Of a stretch of 64,000 nucleotides of DNA, positions 1-10,203 are shown piece after piece. Every line of letters begins with the position of its first letter. Position 1 is the first letter of the stretch. A program made the translations under genes and the position numbers. Under the pieces are notes generated by a model, which was not told where the DNA came from, ran no database searches, and saw nothing but the letters and a program-made list of their open reading frames with translations. Origin of the DNA: Mesoplasma sp. JKS002658 (GTDB taxonomy: Bacteria > Bacillota_I > Bacilli_A > Mycoplasmatales > Mycoplasmataceae); contig NZ_JAKNSW010000002.1 in the NCBI RefSeq assembly GCF_023566355.1, positions 151,559 through 215,558 of the forward strand, read 5' to 3'.

Positions 1-344
1 CTTTATTAGAACAAACAAAAGGCAACCTACCACTTTGATTAGCGCCAATTCAAATCGAAATTATTCCTGTTGGTGACGAGGAAAGTGAAAAGTATGCTAA
101 AAGAATTCAAAAGAATTTAAAAACTGATTATATTCGTACGCATTTAGATAATCGTGATGAAAGATTAAGTTATAAAATTCGCGATGCTCAAATTCATAAA
201 ATTCCTTATCAATTAGTTTTAGGAAAAAAAGAGATTTCAGATAATACTATCACTTATCGAAAATATAATAGTGAAGAGCAGATTACTGTTTCTTGTGACG
301 AGTTTTATTTACTAATTAATCAAGAAATTAAAGAGAAAATGTAA
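1..344 (+). CDS. thrS: Threonyl-tRNA synthetase, C-terminal part (gene cut by window start)
   Basis: The last 113 codons of threonyl-tRNA synthetase, which charges tRNA-Thr in the cytoplasm. The visible part is the anticodon-binding domain: LPLWLAPIQI, then IIPVGD, DNRDERLSYKIRDAQ and KIPYQLVLGKKE, the usual class IIa signatures, ending near the family's normal C terminus. One in-frame TGA (bases 36-38) sits where a Trp is conserved, an early sign of the UGA=Trp code. The catalytic domain lies upstream of the window. The gene ends at TAA 342-344 and converges with the recombinase gene on the other strand. The family assignment is firm; nothing can be said of the start or regulation. Confidence 0.93.
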
Positions 345-376
345 GAAAAAAATCAGCAGTTGATGTTGATTTTTTT
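345..376. terminator. Bidirectional terminator between thrS and the recombinase
   Basis: An A/T-rich hairpin: AAAAAATCA (346-354) pairs with TGATTTTTT (367-375). It gives a T-tract on both strands and lies between two convergent genes. Confidence 0.55.
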
Positions 377-1108
377 CTAGTCGAAGTGATTTTCTAATTC
401 TTTAATGATATCACTGCTCGTAAAGTGTAAATATCGAGCTGTGGTTTCTATTTTTGAATGACCCATAATCATGCTTACAATCTTGATGTTTGCCCCCTTA
501 CGAATTAAATTAGTACAAAAAGATCTTCTGAAAGTATGAGGAGTTACTCAATTTGGTCAATAATCTTTAATTAGTTGATAAATCTGTTTCTTACTATATT
601 TATTATATTTTTCAAAATTAATATTATTAATTGGTTTTAAAATTGGTATTTCTCGATATTTCATTCCTTTACCAAAGATAATTAAAGAATTTTTATTCTT
701 ATTGTACTTTAATTGTTTTAATTCAGAAATTCTTATACCGGTATAATAAAGAATTTTGAATAGATCTTTAACTTCTTGTTTTTTTACTGTTTCCACTATT
801 GTCTCAAACATTTGATTATTGATTGTATTAAAGAAGACATTGCTTATTGAAGGTATTTTTATAGATTCAATTTCGTCTAAGAATTTACATTTACTATAAC
901 GTAAATAACTTAAAATAACATGCTTTTTAAATTGAACTGTTGCTGGTTTATATTTACTTACTTGTGATTTTAAATATTTTGATGTGTTGAATAAAGTGAT
1001 CGTTTTTCCTCCTAAAAACTTAAAAAAATCGGTTAAAGCATATCTGTAACTATAGATTGTGTTCTTTGAATAATTTTGTTTTTCTAAATATCTGATAAAT
1101 TTTTCCAT
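377..1108 (-). CDS. Tyrosine recombinase (XerC/D-like), predicted DNA invertase
   Basis: A 243-residue site-specific tyrosine recombinase. The N-terminal SAM-like DNA-binding domain (about residues 1-90) is followed by the catalytic domain. All six catalytic residues are visible: Arg126 in YTGIRISEL, Lys147 in FGKGMK, His191 and Arg194 in HTFRRS, His217 in MGHSKIET and the Tyr226 nucleophile in TARYLHF. Two TGA codons near residues 184-187 are read as Trp. It is shorter than typical XerC/XerD (about 300 aa), closer to the small mollicute and phage invertases. It lies directly downstream of the methyltransferase on the same strand, and about 100 bp from a 28-bp inverted repeat with a Xer-like 9-6-9 core, so its likely job is flipping 1205-2592. 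GAGG lies four bases before the ATG. A role as the chromosomal Xer protein cannot be excluded. Confidence 0.9.
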
Positions 1109-1201
1109 GGCGCCTCATCGATAGAATAGGAAAATTTATGCATTTTTTCCCATCATCTTTTCTTAAAATAATTTTTTTAGCTTTTTAGGTAGAATATATT
1201 T

Positions 1202-2383
1202 CTAAAGAAATCTATAATGCATCTTATAGATTCAATTGATATTTTTTAGTGAGATATTTGGCCTACCATTTTTATCTAAAACGCTGATAATTCCAGCGTT
1301 TGGATGCCGATCCTGCTTAGTGGTTAATGTAGCACTCAAAATTGCGCAATTTTCTTTAAATTGACTTTTTTTGTTTTTATGTTTATAAATATCACGTTCT
1401 GTTTTACATTCGGAAAATAGTAGAGGATTGTTTTCATACATCTTTATTCTAGAACTTGTTCGACGAGGAATTGAATCGATAGCTTCGTGGTTATATTTCG
1501 AATTTTTATAGTTTGTTTTCAAAATTTTATTTAAATCTTTTTTAGGAAAATAAGTTAATCGGTCGTATTCTTCTTTTAGTGCTTTGGCTTCGGAAATAAT
1601 TTTTTCTCTTAATTCGAGATTGCTTTTTTCTCGTTCTTTAAAGGTGTCAATAAAGTTAATTTTTGAACCTTCATAAACACTTAAAGCGATTACACGCTTT
1701 CTTTTTTGAGGAATTCCAAAATCTTCACTAGATAAAATATAAGTTTGTGTGCAATAGTTTAATTTTTTTAGTTCTTCTAATCATTTTTTATAGTTTTCAA
1801 TATGTTCTGGGGAAAGAATATTTGTCACGTTTTCTAAGATTAAAAATTTGGGTTTAATATCTAAGGCATTTAATTCAATTAAGATTCTTTCAACTTCTCA
1901 AAGTAAACTTGATCTTGAACCCGATCCTTTGGTCATTCCTTGACTCGGATGGTGCAAAGAACTAGCGGATGACAAATCTTGACATGGAAAAGAATAAGTT
2001 ATTACATCAATATTTTCAGCGATGCCAATTAAATTTCTTCCTGTTATTTTGGTGATGTTACCTAGATTATTATTAGACACGTAACTTTCATATAAAAGCG
2101 AGACAAATCTATCACCTTTTTTAACTATTTTTTGAATATCAATTGATTCTTTGGAATCTAATGAATGAATAAAATTCGATAAATAATCAATTTTCTCTTC
2201 TAATGATTTCTTGGACTTGTCTTTTTTATTTTTCATTGCATTGTATGAAATATTAGCAAAGCAATCTCATTCACTTGTTGCCACTATTTCAAAATCAAAA
2301 TTTTCAATTAATTCAGAGAGCGTTTCAAGTGCTTTTCTTTGTGAACCAATTCCAGCAAATGCCTCAAAAACTTTAAATTTCAT
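1202..2383 (-). CDS. DNA C5-cytosine methyltransferase, truncated (OFF) form in an invertible segment
   Basis: A Dcm/M.SssI-like C5-cytosine DNA methyltransferase, 393 residues in this orientation. Motif I is FEAFAGIGSQ (residues 6-15), motif IV with the catalytic Cys is YSFPCQDLS (Cys near 134), motif VI is LENVTN (about 183), motif VIII is PQKRKRV (about 226). The variable target-recognition region follows. After the Trp (TGA) codon at the left repeat it runs IYKMHYRFL and stops at TAG 1202-1204, so motifs IX (LTPRE) and X (GNS) are missing. They are encoded on the plus strand at 2593-2772 beyond the right repeat. Inverting 1205-2592 would give an in-frame protein of 452 residues. The present form is predicted inactive because motif X forms part of the AdoMet pocket. 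The start at 2383 matches the family N terminus; an in-frame ATG at 2422 is an alternative. Target sequence unknown. Confidence 0.9.
1205..1232. repeat. Left 28-bp inverted repeat with recombinase core site
   Basis: Perfect reverse complement of 2565-2592; the match stops abruptly on both sides (1204 and 1233 mismatch). Inside are two 9-base arms, AATCTATAA (1209-1217) and TTATAGATT (1224-1232), perfect inverted copies around the 6-base spacer TGCATC (1218-1223). This is the geometry of a tyrosine-recombinase crossover site. On the minus strand it is translated as IYKMHYRFL within the methyltransferase. Confidence 0.93.
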
Positions 2384-2564
2384 AATAAAATTATTGACTG
2401 ATTTCTTTTGGAGAACAATCATTCCCTTTCTACGAAAAACTTTTATTTTGTTTACTGGATAAATTAATTAGGTTAAAAAAGAATTATTTTTCGAATTGTA
2501 ATGATATGAAATGAAGGTAGAAATTTTTGAAATTTATCTGTAAAATGATAATTAGTTTTTTAGT
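2384..2564 (-). promoter_or_regulatory. Leader/promoter region of the methyltransferase inside the invertible segment
   Basis: About 180 bp between the methyltransferase start and the right repeat. It should carry the methyltransferase promoter, reading leftwards at present. TATCAT and TACAAT boxes occur near 2500 on the minus strand but no -35 is convincing. Because it flips with the gene, it would point away from the recombinase after inversion. Confidence 0.4.
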
Positions 2565-2592
2565 AATCTATAAGATGCATTATAGATTTCTT
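2565..2592. repeat. Right 28-bp inverted repeat with recombinase core site
   Basis: Exact reverse complement of 1205-1232. Core arms AATCTATAA (2565-2573) and TTATAGATT (2580-2588) surround the spacer GATGCA. On the plus strand it is in frame with the following methyltransferase 3' fragment. Confidence 0.93.
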
Positions 2593-2772
2593 ACTCCTAG
2601 GGAATGTTATTTATTGATGGGTTTTTCAGAAAAAGATTATGAATGCATTAAAAGTACTGATTTAGTCTCTAAGCCCGTTATGTATCGTCAGGCGGGCAAT
2701 TCAATTGTGGTTAATGTTTTGGTCGCTGTTTTTAATTACATTTATGTGTTAACACAAAAAAACCAGCTTTAA
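2565..2772 (+). CDS. Detached 3' end of the C5-methyltransferase (motifs IX and X)
   Basis: The silent C-terminal piece of the methyltransferase. From the repeat it reads IYKMHYRFL then TPRECYLLMGF (motif IX, with the repeat supplying the start of the motif), a short linker, and YRQAGNSIVVNVLVAVF (motif X), ending at TAA 2770-2772. It lacks its own obvious start and ribosome-binding site. The plus-strand reading frame is open upstream only to about 2527, through unrelated sequence. It has exactly the parts missing from the minus-strand methyltransferase and shares its reading frame through the repeat, so it becomes the gene's 3' end after inversion. It is not a decayed relic: there is no stop or frameshift in its 59 codons. 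Confidence 0.88.
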
Positions 2773-2790
2773 AAAGCTGGTGTTGTTTTT
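2762..2790. terminator. Bidirectional terminator
   Basis: ACCAGCTT (2762-2769) pairs with AAGCTGGT (2774-2781) around TAAA. A-tract before and T-rich tract after serve both strands. It overlaps the stop codons of the two convergent reading frames. Confidence 0.8.
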
Positions 2791-3701
2791 AAGATTGGAA
2801 AATCAACAAATTCTTTAACACTATCAAGTTGAAATTTTTGAAGACTTTTCCTTAAGTGAGGATTAGGTGTAAGTTTGAATGATATATTTTCTTTCTCTTG
2901 ATTAAGTTTGAAATTTGAAATGATGAATTCATTCACATCAATTCTACTTATTTTACTTATTTCTCGAGTGAGTTGTGCTTCGTTAAGAGCAGATATCGGA
3001 TTTTTATAATTTTCAAAAGGTTGTGCAATTGAACCTTGGTAAAAATCTAGTTGAAAAACTTTTTCTCAATTCAATGACGGATCTGAAATATTTTCATTTT
3101 TTAATCGCAATAATTGATTGTTTAAAATAACTCTAGTTGTGGGTCAATCACGTTCAAAATAATAACTAAGACCATTTGTTTCGGCAAAATCTTTTATTAA
3201 CATGGAACAATAGTTAATTTTTTCTTCTGTAGACCAAGTGCTAATTTGTCAGCGTGAGAAAATTTTAGGTTGATTAATGAAGGGGTAATCCATTTCCTGT
3301 TTGAGAGAAAGTTCACGTTTAAAGACTGCGTTAACAACTCCTTTAAATTTCGAATTTTTTCCATTATTAGCGTTTAATTCTACAGTTAGTCAGTCTTTAT
3401 CATATGAGAGTAAATTTACTGCAATCCCTTTTAAATCCGGATAATGATAAAACATTAATTTTTCAAAAGCATTGCCAATTACTTCTTTGAAGTTGGATTC
3501 GTTGGCTTTCTTATATATTTGTCAATCAATTGGAAATAAGATAACCGCTCCATTAGTTTGTAATGTATTCTTGAAATAAGTTTTTAATTCTATTCGATTA
3601 TCCTTTTTTACTATTTGATTAGAAGTAAAACTAACTATATTTGTGAGTGAAGTGGTCATAATTGTTACAATTAGCAAGTTTTGTAAAAGTTTTCTAAACA
3701 T
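2769..3701 (-). CDS. Putative exported protein of unknown function
   Basis: A 310-residue protein I do not recognise. The N terminus (MFRKLLQNLLIV...TSLTNIVSF) is a short basic stretch followed by a hydrophobic segment to about residue 27, so it is probably secreted or anchored in the membrane. There is no lipobox cysteine, unlike the lipoproteins elsewhere in the window. Several TGA codons are read as Trp. AAGGA lies about eight bases before the ATG. It converges with the methyltransferase fragment (stop codons overlap by three bases) and is divergent from ptsI. It sits at the edge of the accessory island and may belong to it. No enzyme motif was found. Confidence 0.72.
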
Positions 3702-3829
3702 GTTTGAATTCCTTTCTTTTATAAGAATCGGTGAGTTTTAAAAATTTGTTTCAATAAAAAATAAAAAAGTTTAAGGAAATATTTATATTATTGTAAAATC
3801 AAGATAATAAAAAGAGGAGGTTTATAATC

Positions 3830-5557
3830 TTGGCTAAAGTATTAAAAGGGATTGGAGCAAGTCGCGGCATTGCTTTAGGAAAAGTTTTACTTTTAAAAGA
3901 AGAACAATTGGTTATTCCTAACGATAAAATCAAAGATGTTGAAGGAGAGGTTCAAAAATTTAAACAAGGCGTTCAAGCCAGTTTGAAAGATTTAGAAAAC
4001 TTAGTAGAAATCACTACTACCAAATTAGGTGCTGAAAAAGCAGCAATTTTTGGTGCACATGAAGAAATTGTTCAAGATCCTGCAATTGCTCAGGATGTTG
4101 AAGAATTAATTAAAAATGAACAAAAAAATGCTATACAAGCTGTAAAACAGGTTTTTGATAAGTATCATCAATTGTTCTTGAAGATGGATGATCCCTACTT
4201 TAAAGAACGAGCAAGTGATGTGAACGATGTTGCTAATCGTTTAATTAAACACCTCTTAGGAGTTAATATTGTTGATCTTTCTACAATTAATGAGGAAGTC
4301 ATCATTGTCAGTGATGACTTGACCCCTTCTCAAACTGCTCAATTGGATAAAAAGTTTGTTAAAGGTTTTGTTACTAACATTGGAGGAAGAACTTCGCATG
4401 CAGCAATTATGGCGCGTAGTTTGGAACTTCCGGCTGTTTTGGGTTTAAAAAATATCACCGAAATTGTTACTGATGGAGCGATGATTAGTGCTAATGGAAC
4501 CACTGGAGAGGTGATGATTGAATTAGATACTGATGATATTGCTGTTATCAAAAAAAACCAAGTTGAGTTTGAAAAAAACGAAGCTTTATTAAAAACTTAT
4601 GTTAACCAACCAACCATCACTCGTGATCAACATAAAGTATTGGTGGAAGCGAATATTGGTAAGCCAGCTGATTGTGAGGCAGTTTTAAAAAACGGTGGAG
4701 AAGGTATTGGTTTATTCCGTTCTGAATTCTTGTATATGGAAAATGATCACTTTCCTACTGAAGAAGAACAATTTCAAGCTTACAAGGAAGTTATCGACCA
4801 AATGCATGGAAATTTAGTGATAATTCGTACCCTGGATATTGGTGGTGATAAAAGACTATCTTATTATCAATTTCCTTCAGAGATGAATCCCTTTTTAGGT
4901 TATCGGGCAATTCGTTTTTGTTTAGATCATCCAGATATTTTTAAAACTCAATTGCGTGCATTATTACGGGCTTCAGCTTTTGGGTCGTTAGGAATTATGT
5001 TTCCAATGATTGCTACAATTGAAGAGTTTAACCAAGCCAAGGCTTTGGTTGAAGAATGTAAGGCAGAATTAATTGCAGCAAATATCAAGTTTGATCAACA
5101 AGTGCAAGTAGGAATGATGGTTGAAATTCCAGCCGCAGCAGTGAATGCAAAAAACTTTGCTAAAGTGGCGGATTTCTTTTCGATTGGTACTAATGACTTG
5201 ATTCAATATTCAATGGCTGCTGATCGAATGAATCAATCGGTTGCCTATTTATATCAACCACTAAATCCTTCGCTTTTAAATTTGATTAAAATGACTATTG
5301 ATGGTGCTCATACAGAAAATAAATGAGTAGGGATGTGTGGAGAAATGGCTGGTGATCAATTGGCGATTCCTTTATTACTAGGAATGGGATTGGATGCATT
5401 TTCAATGAGTGCTACTTCAATTTTAAAAACACGTTCAATTATTAATAATCTAGATTATCAAACTGCTCAAACTTTGTCCAATCAAGCATTAATGCTTTCT
5501 ACAAGTAAAGAAATTGAAAGTTTGGTTCAAGCCTTTCTAAAGAAAAATAATCTTTAA
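3830..5557 (+). CDS. ptsI: Phosphoenolpyruvate-protein phosphotransferase, enzyme I of the PTS
   Basis: Enzyme I takes phosphate from PEP and passes it to HPr, starting PTS sugar uptake in the cytoplasm. It has 575 residues, the normal family length. The phospho-accepting His is at about residue 190 in [13 protein letters not shown]. The PEP-binding barrel shows [34 protein letters not shown] and, after a TGA-encoded Trp (5324-5326), the C-terminal active-site motif GMCGEMAGD. The start is TTG at 3830, nine bases after a strong GAGGAGG, giving the usual N terminus [13 protein letters not shown]. ptsH and crr are not adjacent, so it appears to be transcribed alone. The following gene has its own promoter. 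Confidence 0.96.
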
Positions 5558-5564
5558 GAAAGTT

Positions 5565-5593
5565 TTGCAATTTAAATTGAGATTAGTTATAAT
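5565..5593 (+). promoter_or_regulatory. Promoter of infC-rpmI-rplT
   Basis: TTGCAA (5565-5570), a 17-base spacer and TATAAT (5588-5593). Transcription would start near 5600, giving a leader of about 125 nt. Confidence 0.8.
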
Positions 5594-5599
5594 CTTAGA

Positions 5600-5727
5600 G
5601 TTAGAAAAGAAGCACAAAGCTCACCGCCAGTGAATAAACAAAACGGTTAAATACTTAAGATTGAAAATGTATTTAAAGATGTGCTGATTGTTTTTTAACG
5701 GCACATTTTTTATTTCAGGAGGAATTG
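5600..5727 (+). promoter_or_regulatory. L20-type 5' leader with attenuating terminator
   Basis: The leader between the promoter and infC ends in a hairpin, ATGTGC (5679-5684) with GCACAT (5701-5706), followed by six T, just before the infC ribosome-binding site. In Firmicutes this operon is controlled by binding of L20 to its own leader. The position and terminator fit that; the pseudoknot itself was not modelled. Confidence 0.7.
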
Positions 5728-6270
5728 ATGAATCAAAATAGATCGCAACAAAAAAGACAACCAGAGGATGCTATTAACCATGATATTCGGGCAAAAGAAA
5801 TTTTAATTATTACTGAAGATGGTCGAAGAATTGGACCAATTTCAAAAAAAGCAGCTATTGAAATGGCAGAAAGTGCTAACCTTGATTTATTGCAAGTTGG
5901 CCAACAAGAAAGTGTTGCTATTGCCAAAATTGTCGACTATGGAAAATATAAGTATGAGCAACAAAAAAGGGCAAAAGAGGTTAAAAAGCATCAAGTTGAA
6001 ACTCAAAATAAAGAAATACGTTTGACAGTGAAAATTGGTGAACACGATTTGGATACAAAAGCTCGTAAAGCTCGTGAGTTTATTCAAAATGGTGATCGAG
6101 TGAAGGTTTCTTTGAAGTTCAAGGGAAGAGAAATTGTTTATTTGAATCAAGGTCAAGACACTTTAATGCGATTTTATGAGAAATTAGCTGATATTGCTCA
6201 AATTGAGAAAGAACCAAAATTAAATACTAGGTTTTTAGATATGTACATTGTGCCTAAAAAGAAAAATTAG
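5728..6270 (+). CDS. infC: Translation initiation factor IF-3
   Basis: IF-3 (180 residues) binds the 30S subunit, prevents premature 50S joining and checks the start codon. The N-terminal domain contains NHDIRAKEILIITEDGRRIG; the C-terminal domain contains KEIRLTVKIGEHDLDTKARKA and VKVSLKFKGRE, typical of the family. The ATG at 5728 is five bases after AGGAGG. A TTG one codon earlier would also be in frame; IF-3 genes often use rare starts for autoregulation, so this alternative remains. It is the first gene of infC-rpmI-rplT, downstream of the L20-type leader. A basic, Gln-rich N-terminal extension of about 15 residues precedes the conserved part. Confidence 0.96.
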   Translation: MNQNRSQQKRQPEDAINHDIRAKEILIITEDGRRIGPISKKAAIEMAESANLDLLQVGQQESVAIAKIVDYGKYKYEQQKRAKEVKKHQVETQNKEIRLTVKIGEHDLDTKARKAREFIQNGDRVKVSLKFKGREIVYLNQGQDTLMRFYEKLADIAQIEKEPKLNTRFLDMYIVPKKKN

Positions 6271-6296
6271 TCAAAAATAGGGAAGGGAAATAAATT

Positions 6297-6491
6297 ATGC
6301 CAAAAATGAAAACCAAAAAAGCATTAGCAAAAAGAGTTAACAAAAATGCTAGTGGAAAACTAAAAAGAGCCCATGCTTATCGTTCTCACCGTGCTACTGG
6401 GAAGACTACTAAGCAAAAAAGACATTTAAAGAAAGCAACTTACATTAAAAAAGTAGATGCTAAACGTTTAGAAAGTTTGTTGCAAGATTAA
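6297..6491 (+). CDS. rpmI: 50S ribosomal protein L35
   Basis: A 64-residue, strongly basic protein ([13 protein letters not shown] at the start, then [19 protein letters not shown]). It matches L35 in length and sequence. It is a late-assembling component of the large subunit, the middle gene of infC-rpmI-rplT and probably co-regulated by L20. GGAAGGGAAA precedes the ATG. Confidence 0.96.
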
Positions 6492-6521
6492 AACTTGTAG
6501 GATAGAAAGAGGTATAAAAAA

Positions 6522-6881
6522 ATGGCTAGAGTAAAATATGGTAAAACTACCAGAGCAAGAAGAAAACGTTGAATTAAGCGTGCAAAGGGATATTACGGAA
6601 CTAAAAGCACAAACTTTAAAAAGGCTCGTGAACAAGTGATTCGTTCAATGGCATATGCTTTTGTTGGTCGTAAGCAAAAGAAGCGTGACTTTAGAAAATT
6701 ATGAATTATGCGAATTAATGCTGCTGTTCGTCCTTATGGGTTAAATTATTCACAATTTATGAACGGAATAAAATTAACTGGTTTAGATTTAAACCGCAAA
6801 ATGCTTTCTGAATTAGCAATTAATCAACCCCAAGAATTTGCCAAGGTAGTTGAAGCAGTAAAAAAAACTTTAAGTAAATAA
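6522..6881 (+). CDS. rplT: 50S ribosomal protein L20
   Basis: A 119-residue protein that binds 23S rRNA early in 50S assembly and, in Firmicutes, represses its own operon. It starts [15 protein letters not shown], the extended basic arm, and continues [28 protein letters not shown] and [12 protein letters not shown]. Two TGA codons fall at conserved Trp positions, which breaks the gene under the standard code. AGAAAGAGG lies before the ATG. It is the last gene of its operon and is followed by a hairpin. Confidence 0.96.
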
Positions 6882-6892
6882 TCATTAACAAA

Positions 6893-6917
6893 GCTAGGTT
6901 TTACCTAGTTTCTTTTA
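6893..6917 (+). terminator. Terminator of infC-rpmI-rplT
   Basis: CTAGGT (6894-6899) pairs with ACCTAG (6903-6908), followed by TTTCTTTT. Confidence 0.65.
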
Positions 6918-6954
6918 TATTAATTATTTTAAGAACGAAAGAGGGGAGAAGAAA

Positions 6955-7302
6955 ATGGCTTATTTAAATGAACAAACTAATGAAATTATTTTTAATAAAA
7001 CCGATCTGATTAATGCTTGAGCAAATGCACCTAAGATTAGTGATGCTAATCCTGATGAGTTTCGAGTATGTATGTACTGCCAATTTCCGATGAAGAAAAA
7101 GCATTATGTTGCTAACCATCGCTTGAAACATCCTACCGATGCTTGAGCAATTGATTTAATTAATTTAAAGAAACCAAAATTGGTTGGGAAAAATCTTTTC
7201 GCTATTCATGCTGGGTGTTTTGGTTTACGTCGACAAGAAAATCAAACTCGGAGATTGAAACGCTATAATCGCACAAAATGATTGATGCCCAAGAATGAGT
7301 AA
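6955..7302 (+). CDS. Small conserved-looking protein with a possible zinc site
   Basis: A 115-residue basic protein I cannot name. The central part reads RVCMYCQFPMKKKHYVANH, with a CxxC pair followed by several His, and later HAGCFGLRRQ. The spacing suggests a metal-binding knuckle, but this is an inference. Two TGA codons are read as Trp. A very strong GAGGGGAG lies before the ATG, so it is probably well expressed. It lies between rplT and glpF with about 70-90 bp on each side. Its size and basic C terminus (RRLKRYNRTKW) would fit a nucleic-acid or ribosome-associated role. Confidence 0.65.
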
Positions 7303-7394
7303 TTACTTCTTTTAGAGCAGAGAAATTTCTTTGATTTTAGTACAATATAAAAAGTTAGACAAAAAGCTCTAACAAGTAGAAAGGAGGAGAAGAT

Positions 7395-8225
7395 ATGTCG
7401 TGAGGATTTCAAGACGTGGGCAGTACCACATCTTATATTGGGTGAATCTTTCTTTCAGAAATGTTAGGAAGTATGCTTTTAGTCATGCTGGGAAACGGAG
7501 TCGTTGCTGCTGTTAATTTAAAAACAAGTAAAGCAAGGGGTGCTGGTTGGTCAGCAATTGCAATTGGTTGAGGATTAGCGGTTTTTGTAGGAGCGATTAC
7601 TTCTCAATATTCAGGAGCCCATTTAAACTTTGCGGTTACCTTAAGTGTATTAATTCAATCAGCTAGTAATAATGCTGGTAATAATCCTTTTGCAAATGGT
7701 CACCAATGGTTGATTGTGATTTATTTGGTAGCTCAATTTACAGGGATGATTATTGGTCAATTATTGTTAGATTTAGTTTATTGGTTACAGATTGAAAAAT
7801 CTGATGCTGGTGAAGTTTTAGGTTTTCATTGTACGGCTCCAGCTCAAAAAGAACGTAGCAAAAAAACCTATGCTTTTAATACATTTGCCGAATTTATGGC
7901 AACTTTTGTATTAGTGCTTGGTCTTGGTGCCGCTAGTTTGTATACTGGTACTGGTCATAACTTTGGAAGTTTTAATCTTCCTGCATCAAGTTTAATTGGT
8001 GTAGGAATTGCGATGGCAGTAGTTGCGGGAGTTGGTTATGGCTTAGGTGGTCCTACTGGGTTTGCCATTAACCCTACTCGTGATTTGGCTCCAAGAATCG
8101 TTCACCATTTTCTTCCTTTGCCTAATAAGGGTTCATCTGATTGGGCATATAGCTGAGTTCCAGTAGTTGGTCCAGTTTTAGGTGGAATTGTTGGTGGCGC
8201 ACTTATTTTAGCAATGATGCATTAA
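7395..8225 (+). CDS. glpF: Glycerol uptake facilitator (MIP/aquaporin family)
   Basis: A 276-residue membrane channel of the aquaglyceroporin family, which lets glycerol cross the membrane for lipid synthesis or ATP generation. About six transmembrane segments are visible, with two re-entrant loops. Both NPA boxes are altered: the first is [10 protein letters not shown] (Asn78-Phe79-Ala80), the second is [12 protein letters not shown] (Asn226-Pro227-Thr228). Aquaglyceroporins often keep the Asp in the second loop, seen here as RDLAPR. AAGGAGGAG precedes the ATG. The gene is alone, followed by a perfect palindromic terminator. A six-base inverted repeat (GTTAGA/TCTAAC) lies in the 5' leader near 7353-7372, of unknown role. 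Confidence 0.9.
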
Positions 8226-8244
8226 TACTCCACAATAGTCTAAG

Positions 8245-8275
8245 AAAAAAGTTAGGAATATTCCTAACTTTTTTG
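8245..8275. terminator. Bidirectional terminator between glpF and trpS
   Basis: An 18-base perfect palindrome (8251-8268, half GTTAGGAAT) with A6 before and T6 after. It serves both convergent genes. Confidence 0.9.
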
Positions 8276-8278
8276 TTT

Positions 8279-9292
8279 TTATTTACGCTTATAATTTAAT
8301 CCCATTGTATTTTGAACTTTCTGCAGTTTTTTATAGGCAATTTTTTGAGCTTTTAATGCACCTTCTTTTAATCATTGATCCAAATCATCACCACTTTTTA
8401 AAAGTTGGTAACGTTCCTGAATTGGGGATAATTCCTTAATTAGAACATCACTAACTGCAGTTTTAAATTCTTGGTAGTTTTTATTTAAGAATTGCTGTTC
8501 GATTTCGGGATGAGTCAAACCAGTAATAGCAGAATAAATTGTCATTAAATTAGAAATTCCTGGTTTAGTTTTCAGATTGTAATAGACCTTATCCTCACTA
8601 TCAGTTAAAGCGCTGTTGATTTTCTTCCGAATAAGATCAGGTTGATCAAGAATTCGAATGAAGGCTTTTTCATTAGTGCTTGATTTCGACATTTTCTTTG
8701 TTGGATCTTGTAAATCCATAATTTTAGGAGTTTTAGTTGGTATCAAGGCTTCTGGTAAAACAAAGAGATCTTGTTGATAAGTTTTATTCATTCGTTCGGC
8801 TAAAGTTCTAGTTAATTCCACGTGTTGTACTTGATCGATTCCTACTGGAACATAATTAGCATCATATAAAAGAATGTCAGCGGCCATTAGGGTTGGATAG
8901 GTCAATAAACCACTAGGGATATAACTGGTTTTGTTCCCTGCTTTTAAAGATTTATCTTTATATTGAGTCATTCTTTCTAATTCACCCATGTTAGTTTGAG
9001 TGTTTAAAATTCATCCCAACTGCGCGTGCTCTAAAACATCAGATTGAATAAAGACTGTGGTTAGTTGTGGGTCGATTCCACAAGCAATATAAAGAGTTGC
9101 CATCGTTTTAATATTTTCTTTTAACTTGGTTTTGTCTTGAGGAGTGGTGATTGCGTGGAGGTTGGCAATAAAAAGAAATAAATCATAGTCTTGTTGGTAA
9201 CTAACAATTTGTTTAATCACGCCAAAATAGTTACCAATTGTCATGTTTCCACTAGAAGCTATTGCAGTTACCATGCGCTTTTTTTCGCTCAT
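8279..9292 (-). CDS. trpS: Tryptophanyl-tRNA synthetase
   Basis: A 337-residue class I synthetase, normal length. The HIGH-type motif appears as NMTIGNYFG near residue 20 and the KMSKS loop as PTKKMSKS near residue 199. Other family blocks are LTYPTLMAADILLYD and VPVGIDQVQHVELTR. It charges tRNA-Trp; in this organism Trp is read from both UGG and UGA, so the enzyme serves two tRNA isoacceptors. Two Trp codons in the gene itself are TGA. It is transcribed away from nadK, with no obvious T-box or attenuator in the short upstream region. Confidence 0.96.
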
Positions 9293-9411: not shown

Positions 9412-10203
9412 GTGAAGTATAGTATTGTCAAAAATGATTATCCTGAAAGTTTAGATTTAGCTAATCAATTAACTGAGCAACTAACATCAGATCAAGCGTG
9501 AGTGGTTGATGATGAAAATCCTGATTATGTTTTTGTAATTGGTGGTGATGGTACTTTTTTAAAAGCAGTTAAGCAGTTTAATCATTTATTAGCACAAATT
9601 AAATTCTATCCGATTAAAAAAGGCGGTATTGGTTTTTATACTAATCGTAACCTTTTTGATCCTAAGGAATTGAAAACTAACCTTAATTTAAATGAATGTC
9701 AAATTAATAAATATCCCCTTTTGGAGGTAAAAATTGATGAGAAAACGTTTTTTGTCATTAACGAACTGAAAGTTTTAAATGATGTGGTGCCTCAGCAATT
9801 TAGTATTTTTGTCAATGATGAAAAATTAGAAAATTTCAAGGGGACAGGAGTGGTTTTTGCTACTCCGAGTGGATCGACAGGATATTTAAAGTCAATCAAT
9901 GGAGCCATTATCTATCCAACCAGTCAAGAATTATTTGAGATGCAAGAAGTGGCTCCAGTTTCTACGGTGTTGTTTCATACAATCAATGCTCCAATTATCT
10001 TCTGTCATGAAGAAACTATTAGATTAACTCAGATTAACTCACTTAAAGTAAATGATGCTTTAACCGTAGTTGGCGATGCTAGAATTATTGCTACAACTTT
10101 TGCTACCATTGAGGTTAAAATTAGTGCGATTAAGTTAAAAATTATTACCACCAATAAAATTAATCACGCCGCTTTACTAAAAGATATCTTTGTTGGTAAC
10201 TAA
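9412..10203 (+). CDS. nadK: NAD kinase
   Basis: A 263-residue ATP/polyphosphate-dependent NAD kinase that makes NADP. The nucleotide-binding GGDGT motif (residues 44-48, in VFVIGGDGTFLKA) and the substrate motif FATPSGSTGYLKS are intact; FVINELKV matches the NE-containing block. The GTG at 9412 is chosen because it is eight bases after AAGGAG. An in-frame ATG at 9406 is only two bases away from that site. One TGA is read as Trp. A short protein for the family, as usual in mollicutes. Confidence 0.93.

Follow-up and report, generated by a model that had tools for sequence, protein, structure and literature searches.

Inversion switches driven by Xer-family recombinases are already known in the Mollicutes, acting either on surface proteins (PMC3599477, PMC2268961) or on type I hsdS genes (PMC9465063). 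In Ureaplasma parvum, XerC binds the repeats and inverts the mba locus; the same report describes dif as a 28-nt motif that is often palindromic around a central hexanucleotide (PMC3599477). The locus analysed here resembles the mba/UU172 system in that a mollicute, short inverted repeats and a tyrosine recombinase are involved, and, as at UU172, where the 5' part of the gene contains one of the repeats, a repeat lies within coding sequence (PMC3599477). It resembles the Mycoplasma agalactiae vpma locus in encoding its own Xer-type recombinase, which at vpma is Xer1 and is required for inversion switching, and it resembles the vsa and hsd systems of M. pulmonis, which are switched by inversion through the Xer-type recombinase HvsR (PMC2268961). 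Phase variation of the methyltransferase PglX is also cited in the literature (PMC7513527).

The window, by which we mean the whole 64,000-nucleotide stretch of DNA that was analysed, very likely derives from a small wall-less bacterium living as an ant-gut symbiont, as judged from sequence. The truncated methyltransferase (MTase) encoded in it differs at 1 of 406 residues from a protein assigned by NCBI name to Mesoplasma whartonense (P0001). Assignment of the window to this species is based on that single protein. M. whartonense has been cultured from the guts of the ant Trachymyrmex septentrionalis, in a study that covers eight sequenced isolates and eleven MAGs (PMC12239587). We propose, with a probability of roughly 0.78, that a C5-MTase gene in the window is split at inverted dif-like sites and that the neighbouring Xer-type recombinase flips the 1.39-kb piece between an ON and an OFF orientation, the latter being the one seen. 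The features of the locus and of its counterpart in Mesoplasma lactucae are collected in the table.

Table. Coordinates of the split MTase locus in the window and of the related locus in M. lactucae (positions in the fetched locus L040).
Feature	Position	Strand	Remarks
Xer-type tyrosine recombinase, 243 aa	377..1108	-	PF00589, E = 3.1e-20; predicted catalyst of inversion
C5-MTase N-part, OFF form	1202..2422	-	406 codons, 393 from the second ATG at 2383; without the last conserved blocks
Predicted invertible segment, including both repeats	1205..2592		1388 bp; exact inverted repeats at the ends, in-frame computed join
Left inverted repeat	1205..1232	-	dif-like core AATCTATAA-GATGCA-TTATAGATT at 1209-1232, minus-strand reading
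Detached MTase C-part frame	2527..2772	+	open frame; MTase-specific post-repeat sequence 2593-2772
Right inverted repeat	2565..2592	+	identical core at 2565-2588; central hexamer 2574-2579
Terminator-like hairpin overlapping the C-part end	2762..2781	+	listed on both strands; consensus match only
M. lactucae recombinase	L040 5339-6070	-	63% identical to the window recombinase
M. lactucae MTase N-part	L040 6134-7297	-	about 50% identical; upstream of the recombinase; same end missing
M. lactucae sites ATAAGATGTATTATA	L040 6169-6183 / 10033-10047	minus / plus	share ATAA-GATGYA-TTAT with the window sites

Translation table 4 (TGA = Trp) was needed for the N-terminal part of the MTase (N-part) and the recombinase each to read as a single frame. 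By its profile matches, the whole gene is a C5-cytosine DNA methyltransferase: the N-part matches PF00145 (DNA_methylase; E = 2.4e-37) up to position 252 of 324 and scores just over the TIGR00675 cut-off, the detached C-terminal part (C-part) matches PF00145 at positions 272-322 of 324 (E = 5.5e-9), and both halves exceed the curated PF00145 cut-off for C5 MTases. Because the N-part match ends at 252 and that of the C-part covers 272-322, the last conserved blocks, which we take to be motifs IX and X, are missing from the N-part. In the present orientation its TAG stop is the codon directly after the repeat. Promoter-like sites were fewer than in shuffled sequence both in the window (15 vs 21.2) and in M. 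lactucae (27 vs 33.5), and no promoter is therefore claimed. When the window was searched for a cognate restriction enzyme, the neighbouring gene at 2769-3701 (minus strand, convergent with the C-part) was found to encode a 310-aa protein that matched no Pfam, NCBIfam or PADLOC model.

The inverted repeat that separates the halves is exact (28/28 bp). For comparison, the longest exact repeats of this kind measured 12-17 bp when positions 1-9000 were shuffled 50 times by a first-order Markov model, and 17-18 bp in eight such shuffles of the whole 64 kb. Each repeat has a dif-like layout, with 9-bp inverted arms flanking a 6-bp centre (AATCTATAA-GATGCA-TTATAGATT), and contains ATAA-N6-TTAT, the heart of Xer sites such as E. 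coli dif. With up to three mismatches allowed, the 24-mer core has two copies in the 767,909-b, four-contig genome, and both are at the locus. Read on the other strand, the sites at 1209-1232 and 2565-2588 contain TATAAT, which is -10-like and is absent from the promoter scan list.

Computed inversion of 1205-2592 generated a single frame of 465 codons that reads ...NWIYKMHYRFL-TPRECYLLMGF... across the join. The geometry set out in the original prediction was thus reproduced: an exact 28-bp inverted repeat splits the C5-MTase gene, the missing end is located on the opposite strand in the same frame without stops (the plus-strand frame is open until it ends at 2772), and flipping joins codon to codon, IYKMHYRFL continuing into TPREC. 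Its figure of 452 residues with all motifs holds when the count starts at the second ATG, short of the full frame. It was also right that motifs IX and X are missing, but it had placed the cut inside motif IX, and the cut falls just before that block (between YRFL and TPRE).

The product of the adjacent gene carries the complete tyrosine recombinase catalytic set (R126, K147, H191, R194, H217 and Y226), which is likewise present in the proteins P0121, P0122 and P0124. It resembles XerA/C/D yet scores under all 13 listed NCBIfam cut-offs, the top XerA/C/D equivalog score reaching 118 bits where 220 are required, and for this reason we label it Xer-type rather than XerC or XerD. A second tyrosine recombinase encoded in the same genome (G000:C2:69082-69768) is 38% identical and is possibly the housekeeping Xer.

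Scanning genome contigs with the single MTase sequence returned no relative, and scanning with an eight-row alignment led to M. lactucae ATCC 49193 (NZ_CP023668.1, 837,471 b), the nearest genome compared. Its MTase is cut at the same residues as the window gene, and the C-part is located 3.9 kb away on the plus strand, in a frame stopping at 10232 of L040. Of the 58 C-part residues that can be aligned downstream of the site, 33 are the same in both species. The sequence ATAA-GATGYA-TTAT, two arms around a 6-bp centre, is common to all four sites in the two species, and the inner site arms in M. lactucae are weakly or not palindromic. A 20-base version of the site, searched with up to three mismatches, occurs at only two places in the M. 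lactucae genome, both without mismatch; the same search found one additional place, at three mismatches, in the window's genome, and a reversed control pattern gave one and three places in the two genomes. Computed inversion of the M. lactucae segment yields an open frame of 441 codons, 437 from the ATG. In both species, computed exchange between the inverted sites therefore alters the gene product.

The M. lactucae segment is larger (∼3.9 kb) and its additional genes, the MTase neighbours within the predicted invertible piece (L040:7310-10034), encode on the N-part strand a 680-aa protein in which GmrSD_N and GmrSD_C domains are recognized, and a protein of 230 aa assigned to no family. PADLOC likens the 680-aa protein to several defence proteins, and the start codon of its gene overlaps the M. 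lactucae site. A hairpin is present at the C-part end in both species; in the window it scores as a terminator-like element on the strand that carries the C-part, in M. lactucae solely on the opposite one.

Splitting of this kind is rare among homologues. In an alignment of 17 homologues, which excludes the fetched loci L054, L056, L058 and L059, the remaining 15 all stay in a single frame across the TPRE-type and QAGNS-type blocks. A continuous MTase is present at 94 of 101 loci with a match, a count of loci and not of species because several genomes were fetched twice, and an opposite-strand C-part was found only in the window and in M. lactucae. These account for three of the seven non-continuous loci, M. 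lactucae being represented twice by a single locus (L040 and L091). The other four were rejected as split C5 MTases: L054 is a partial match only, L058 has pieces in several frames on one strand, L059 carries other, distant MTases of the window's genome, and L097 has two frames on one strand. At L059:7019-9270 (C1) this genome encodes two more C5 MTases in back-to-back genes, each covering nearly the whole PF00145 profile. Separate C-terminal C5-MTase pieces also occur as P0133 (Spiroplasma clarkii, 107 aa) and P0134 (106 aa); both start upstream of the TTKQDR block, and their break point therefore differs from that of the window.

Every close copy found is OFF: the protein clusters P0001, P0002 and P0003, which all terminate in MHYRFL, and M. 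lactucae. No ON form was found among the 120 best hits (of 2,481; 7,997 candidates scored), the 117 beyond these three clusters being at most 48% identical, in a search at the level of clusters, within which an ON minority would be invisible. Because only OFF forms are among the proteins found, the claim for a switch rests on the anatomy of the locus. The uniform orientation would also be expected of a locked relic, in which an old inversion split the MTase and the gene has been OFF ever since, its halves kept by chance or slowly decaying. Of 2000 runs of a crude neutral model, 123-197 (6-10%) kept a frame of 59 codons open by chance. Yet the halves, sites and recombinase are intact in two species whose proteins are ∼50-63% identical, a third relative, from a metagenome, retains 45 of 51 C-part residues, and pN/pS between the window and M. 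lactucae is 0.45 for the C-part, much like the 0.46 of the N-part (recombinase, 0.35). Since dS is near saturation (1.5-1.9) and 6-10% of the neutral runs stayed open, the conservation of the C-part is moderate evidence only. On balance we consider a locked relic unlikely.

Alternatively, the N-part and a separately made C-part could assemble into an active MTase, the split being permanent and functional. A two-piece enzyme has precedents among C5 MTases in the heterodimers AquI and EcoHK31I. An in-frame ATG is located within the site centre in both species, gene callers list the C-parts as proteins (P0130 and P0132; P0131 is a further separately listed C-part of this group), and residues 15-97 resemble the N-terminal subunit of a C5 MTase as modelled in NCBIfam, albeit with 48.8 bits, below the cut-off of 93. 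On the other hand, no ribosome-binding site was seen by eye upstream of the C-part, and assembly from two pieces leaves the paired dif-like sites, the adjoining recombinase and their joint presence in both species unexplained. We regard such an enzyme as very unlikely.

Use of the recombinase for something else, for instance to integrate a mobile island, with the inverted sites as a by-product, is the least probable of the three alternatives: enzymes of the tyrosine recombinase family are widespread in the order, matches at E ≤ 1e-10 being present in 57 of 320 genomes, and the M. lactucae copy is surrounded by restriction-type genes, but the close form of this recombinase was confined in the protein search to this group (91, 90, 79 and 63% identity, then 39%), the next of the 320 genomes by E-value after M. 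lactucae has a recombinase 37% identical, and the site occurs at this locus alone in both genomes. Viral contigs yielded only two distant relatives of the recombinase, at 34% and 28% identity, and a phage origin was rejected.

We consider these three explanations less likely than the switch, which, as far as sequence can tell, is well supported by an exact 28-bp repeat where shuffles give 12-18 bp, by the in-frame join and by an adjacent recombinase with the R-K-H-R-H-Y set. The confinement of the site to the locus in both genomes and the similar arrangement in M. lactucae likewise support it well. Against it stand the OFF orientation of all close copies, the listing of this group's C-parts as proteins in their own right, a predicted feedback that would favour ON (see below) and the non-palindromic inner arms in M. 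lactucae. The original prediction of an invertible ON/OFF MTase caught in the OFF state therefore gains from the anatomy and from a second species, and is weakened by the finding that every close copy is OFF. Frameshifts in the joined gene of a relative, which it had named as evidence to the contrary, are absent in M. lactucae, where the joined frame is open. The adjoining recombinase, the dif-like layout of the repeats and the M. lactucae counterpart go beyond it. Its mention of CpG-type methylation found no support: the CpG enzyme M.MpeI matches only residues 13-309, and CpG specificity was rejected as unsupported, the CpG observed/expected ratio of the window (0.76) being just mildly low and lying inside the 0.35-0.93 of eleven relatives' loci.

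If the switch operates as proposed, the recombinase would pair both sites and exchange strands within the central hexamer GATGCA. The crossover would fall within codons common to both sites, so that ON would encode the full MTase and OFF a product that lacks the last conserved blocks and is probably inactive for that reason. The recombinase gene lies downstream of the N-part on the same strand, and no terminator-like hairpin is listed between them in either species; for these reasons the recombinase would be co-transcribed with the truncated MTase in OFF, and it would be uncoupled from it in ON. Because such feedback would favour ON and yet all the data are OFF, selection may act against ON cells, or a separate promoter may drive the recombinase.

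A broader proposal is that in one mollicute lineage an Xer recombinase has been recruited as a dedicated epigenetic switch that contains its own feedback, the recombinase ending the MTase operon in OFF and being detached from it in ON. Under the same proposal, the M. lactucae flip would also swap the upstream region of the GmrSD-type nuclease operon: because inversion exchanges this region and the GmrSD-type start codon overlaps the site, a single event could toggle between a methylating and a nuclease state. We regard this extended scheme as speculative and rather doubtful.

If the proposed switch is real, a single gene would act as an epigenetic switch, its solitary C5 MTase being completed or cut short by a recombinase of its own, in organisms of a kind that has few transcription factors. 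Cells would likely flip this DNA mark on and off, provided that the recombinase acts as predicted. M. whartonense has been cultured (PMC12239587), and the M. lactucae record is that of an ATCC strain.

Comparison with the described systems sets the locus apart in several respects. In U. parvum the targets are surface proteins, and the available part of that report describes no recombinase gene within the locus, whereas here an MTase adjoins its recombinase (PMC3599477). At vpma the sites are located upstream of start codons and a promoter is shuffled among surface genes, and the hsd inversion of M. pulmonis swaps type I specificity (PMC2268961). Type I hsdS genes of Streptococcus and other bacteria share with the window inverted repeats in methyltransferase-related genes, often with a recombinase at the locus, but there the specificity subunits of N6-adenine type I systems are swapped, whereas the C5 MTase would be whole or truncated (PMC7394358). 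The pglX genes of Lactobacillus rhamnosus, with a full and a partial methyltransferase copy around an integrase, are similar in layout; PglX, however, is an N6-adenine enzyme within a BREX defence cassette and not a solitary C5 MTase (PMC7513527). ON/OFF methylation in a mollicute is also described for type II and III systems of M. agalactiae, by frameshifts in a homopolymer or GA tract and without recombination (PMC9465063). An inverting solitary C5 MTase was not met in the titles and abstract openings of the literature searched, which includes few subscription papers, and absence from print is not claimed. Taken together, Xer-driven inversion is familiar in the Mollicutes for surface proteins and type I hsdS, and what the locus is predicted to add is an intragenic inversion switch acting on a solitary C5 MTase.
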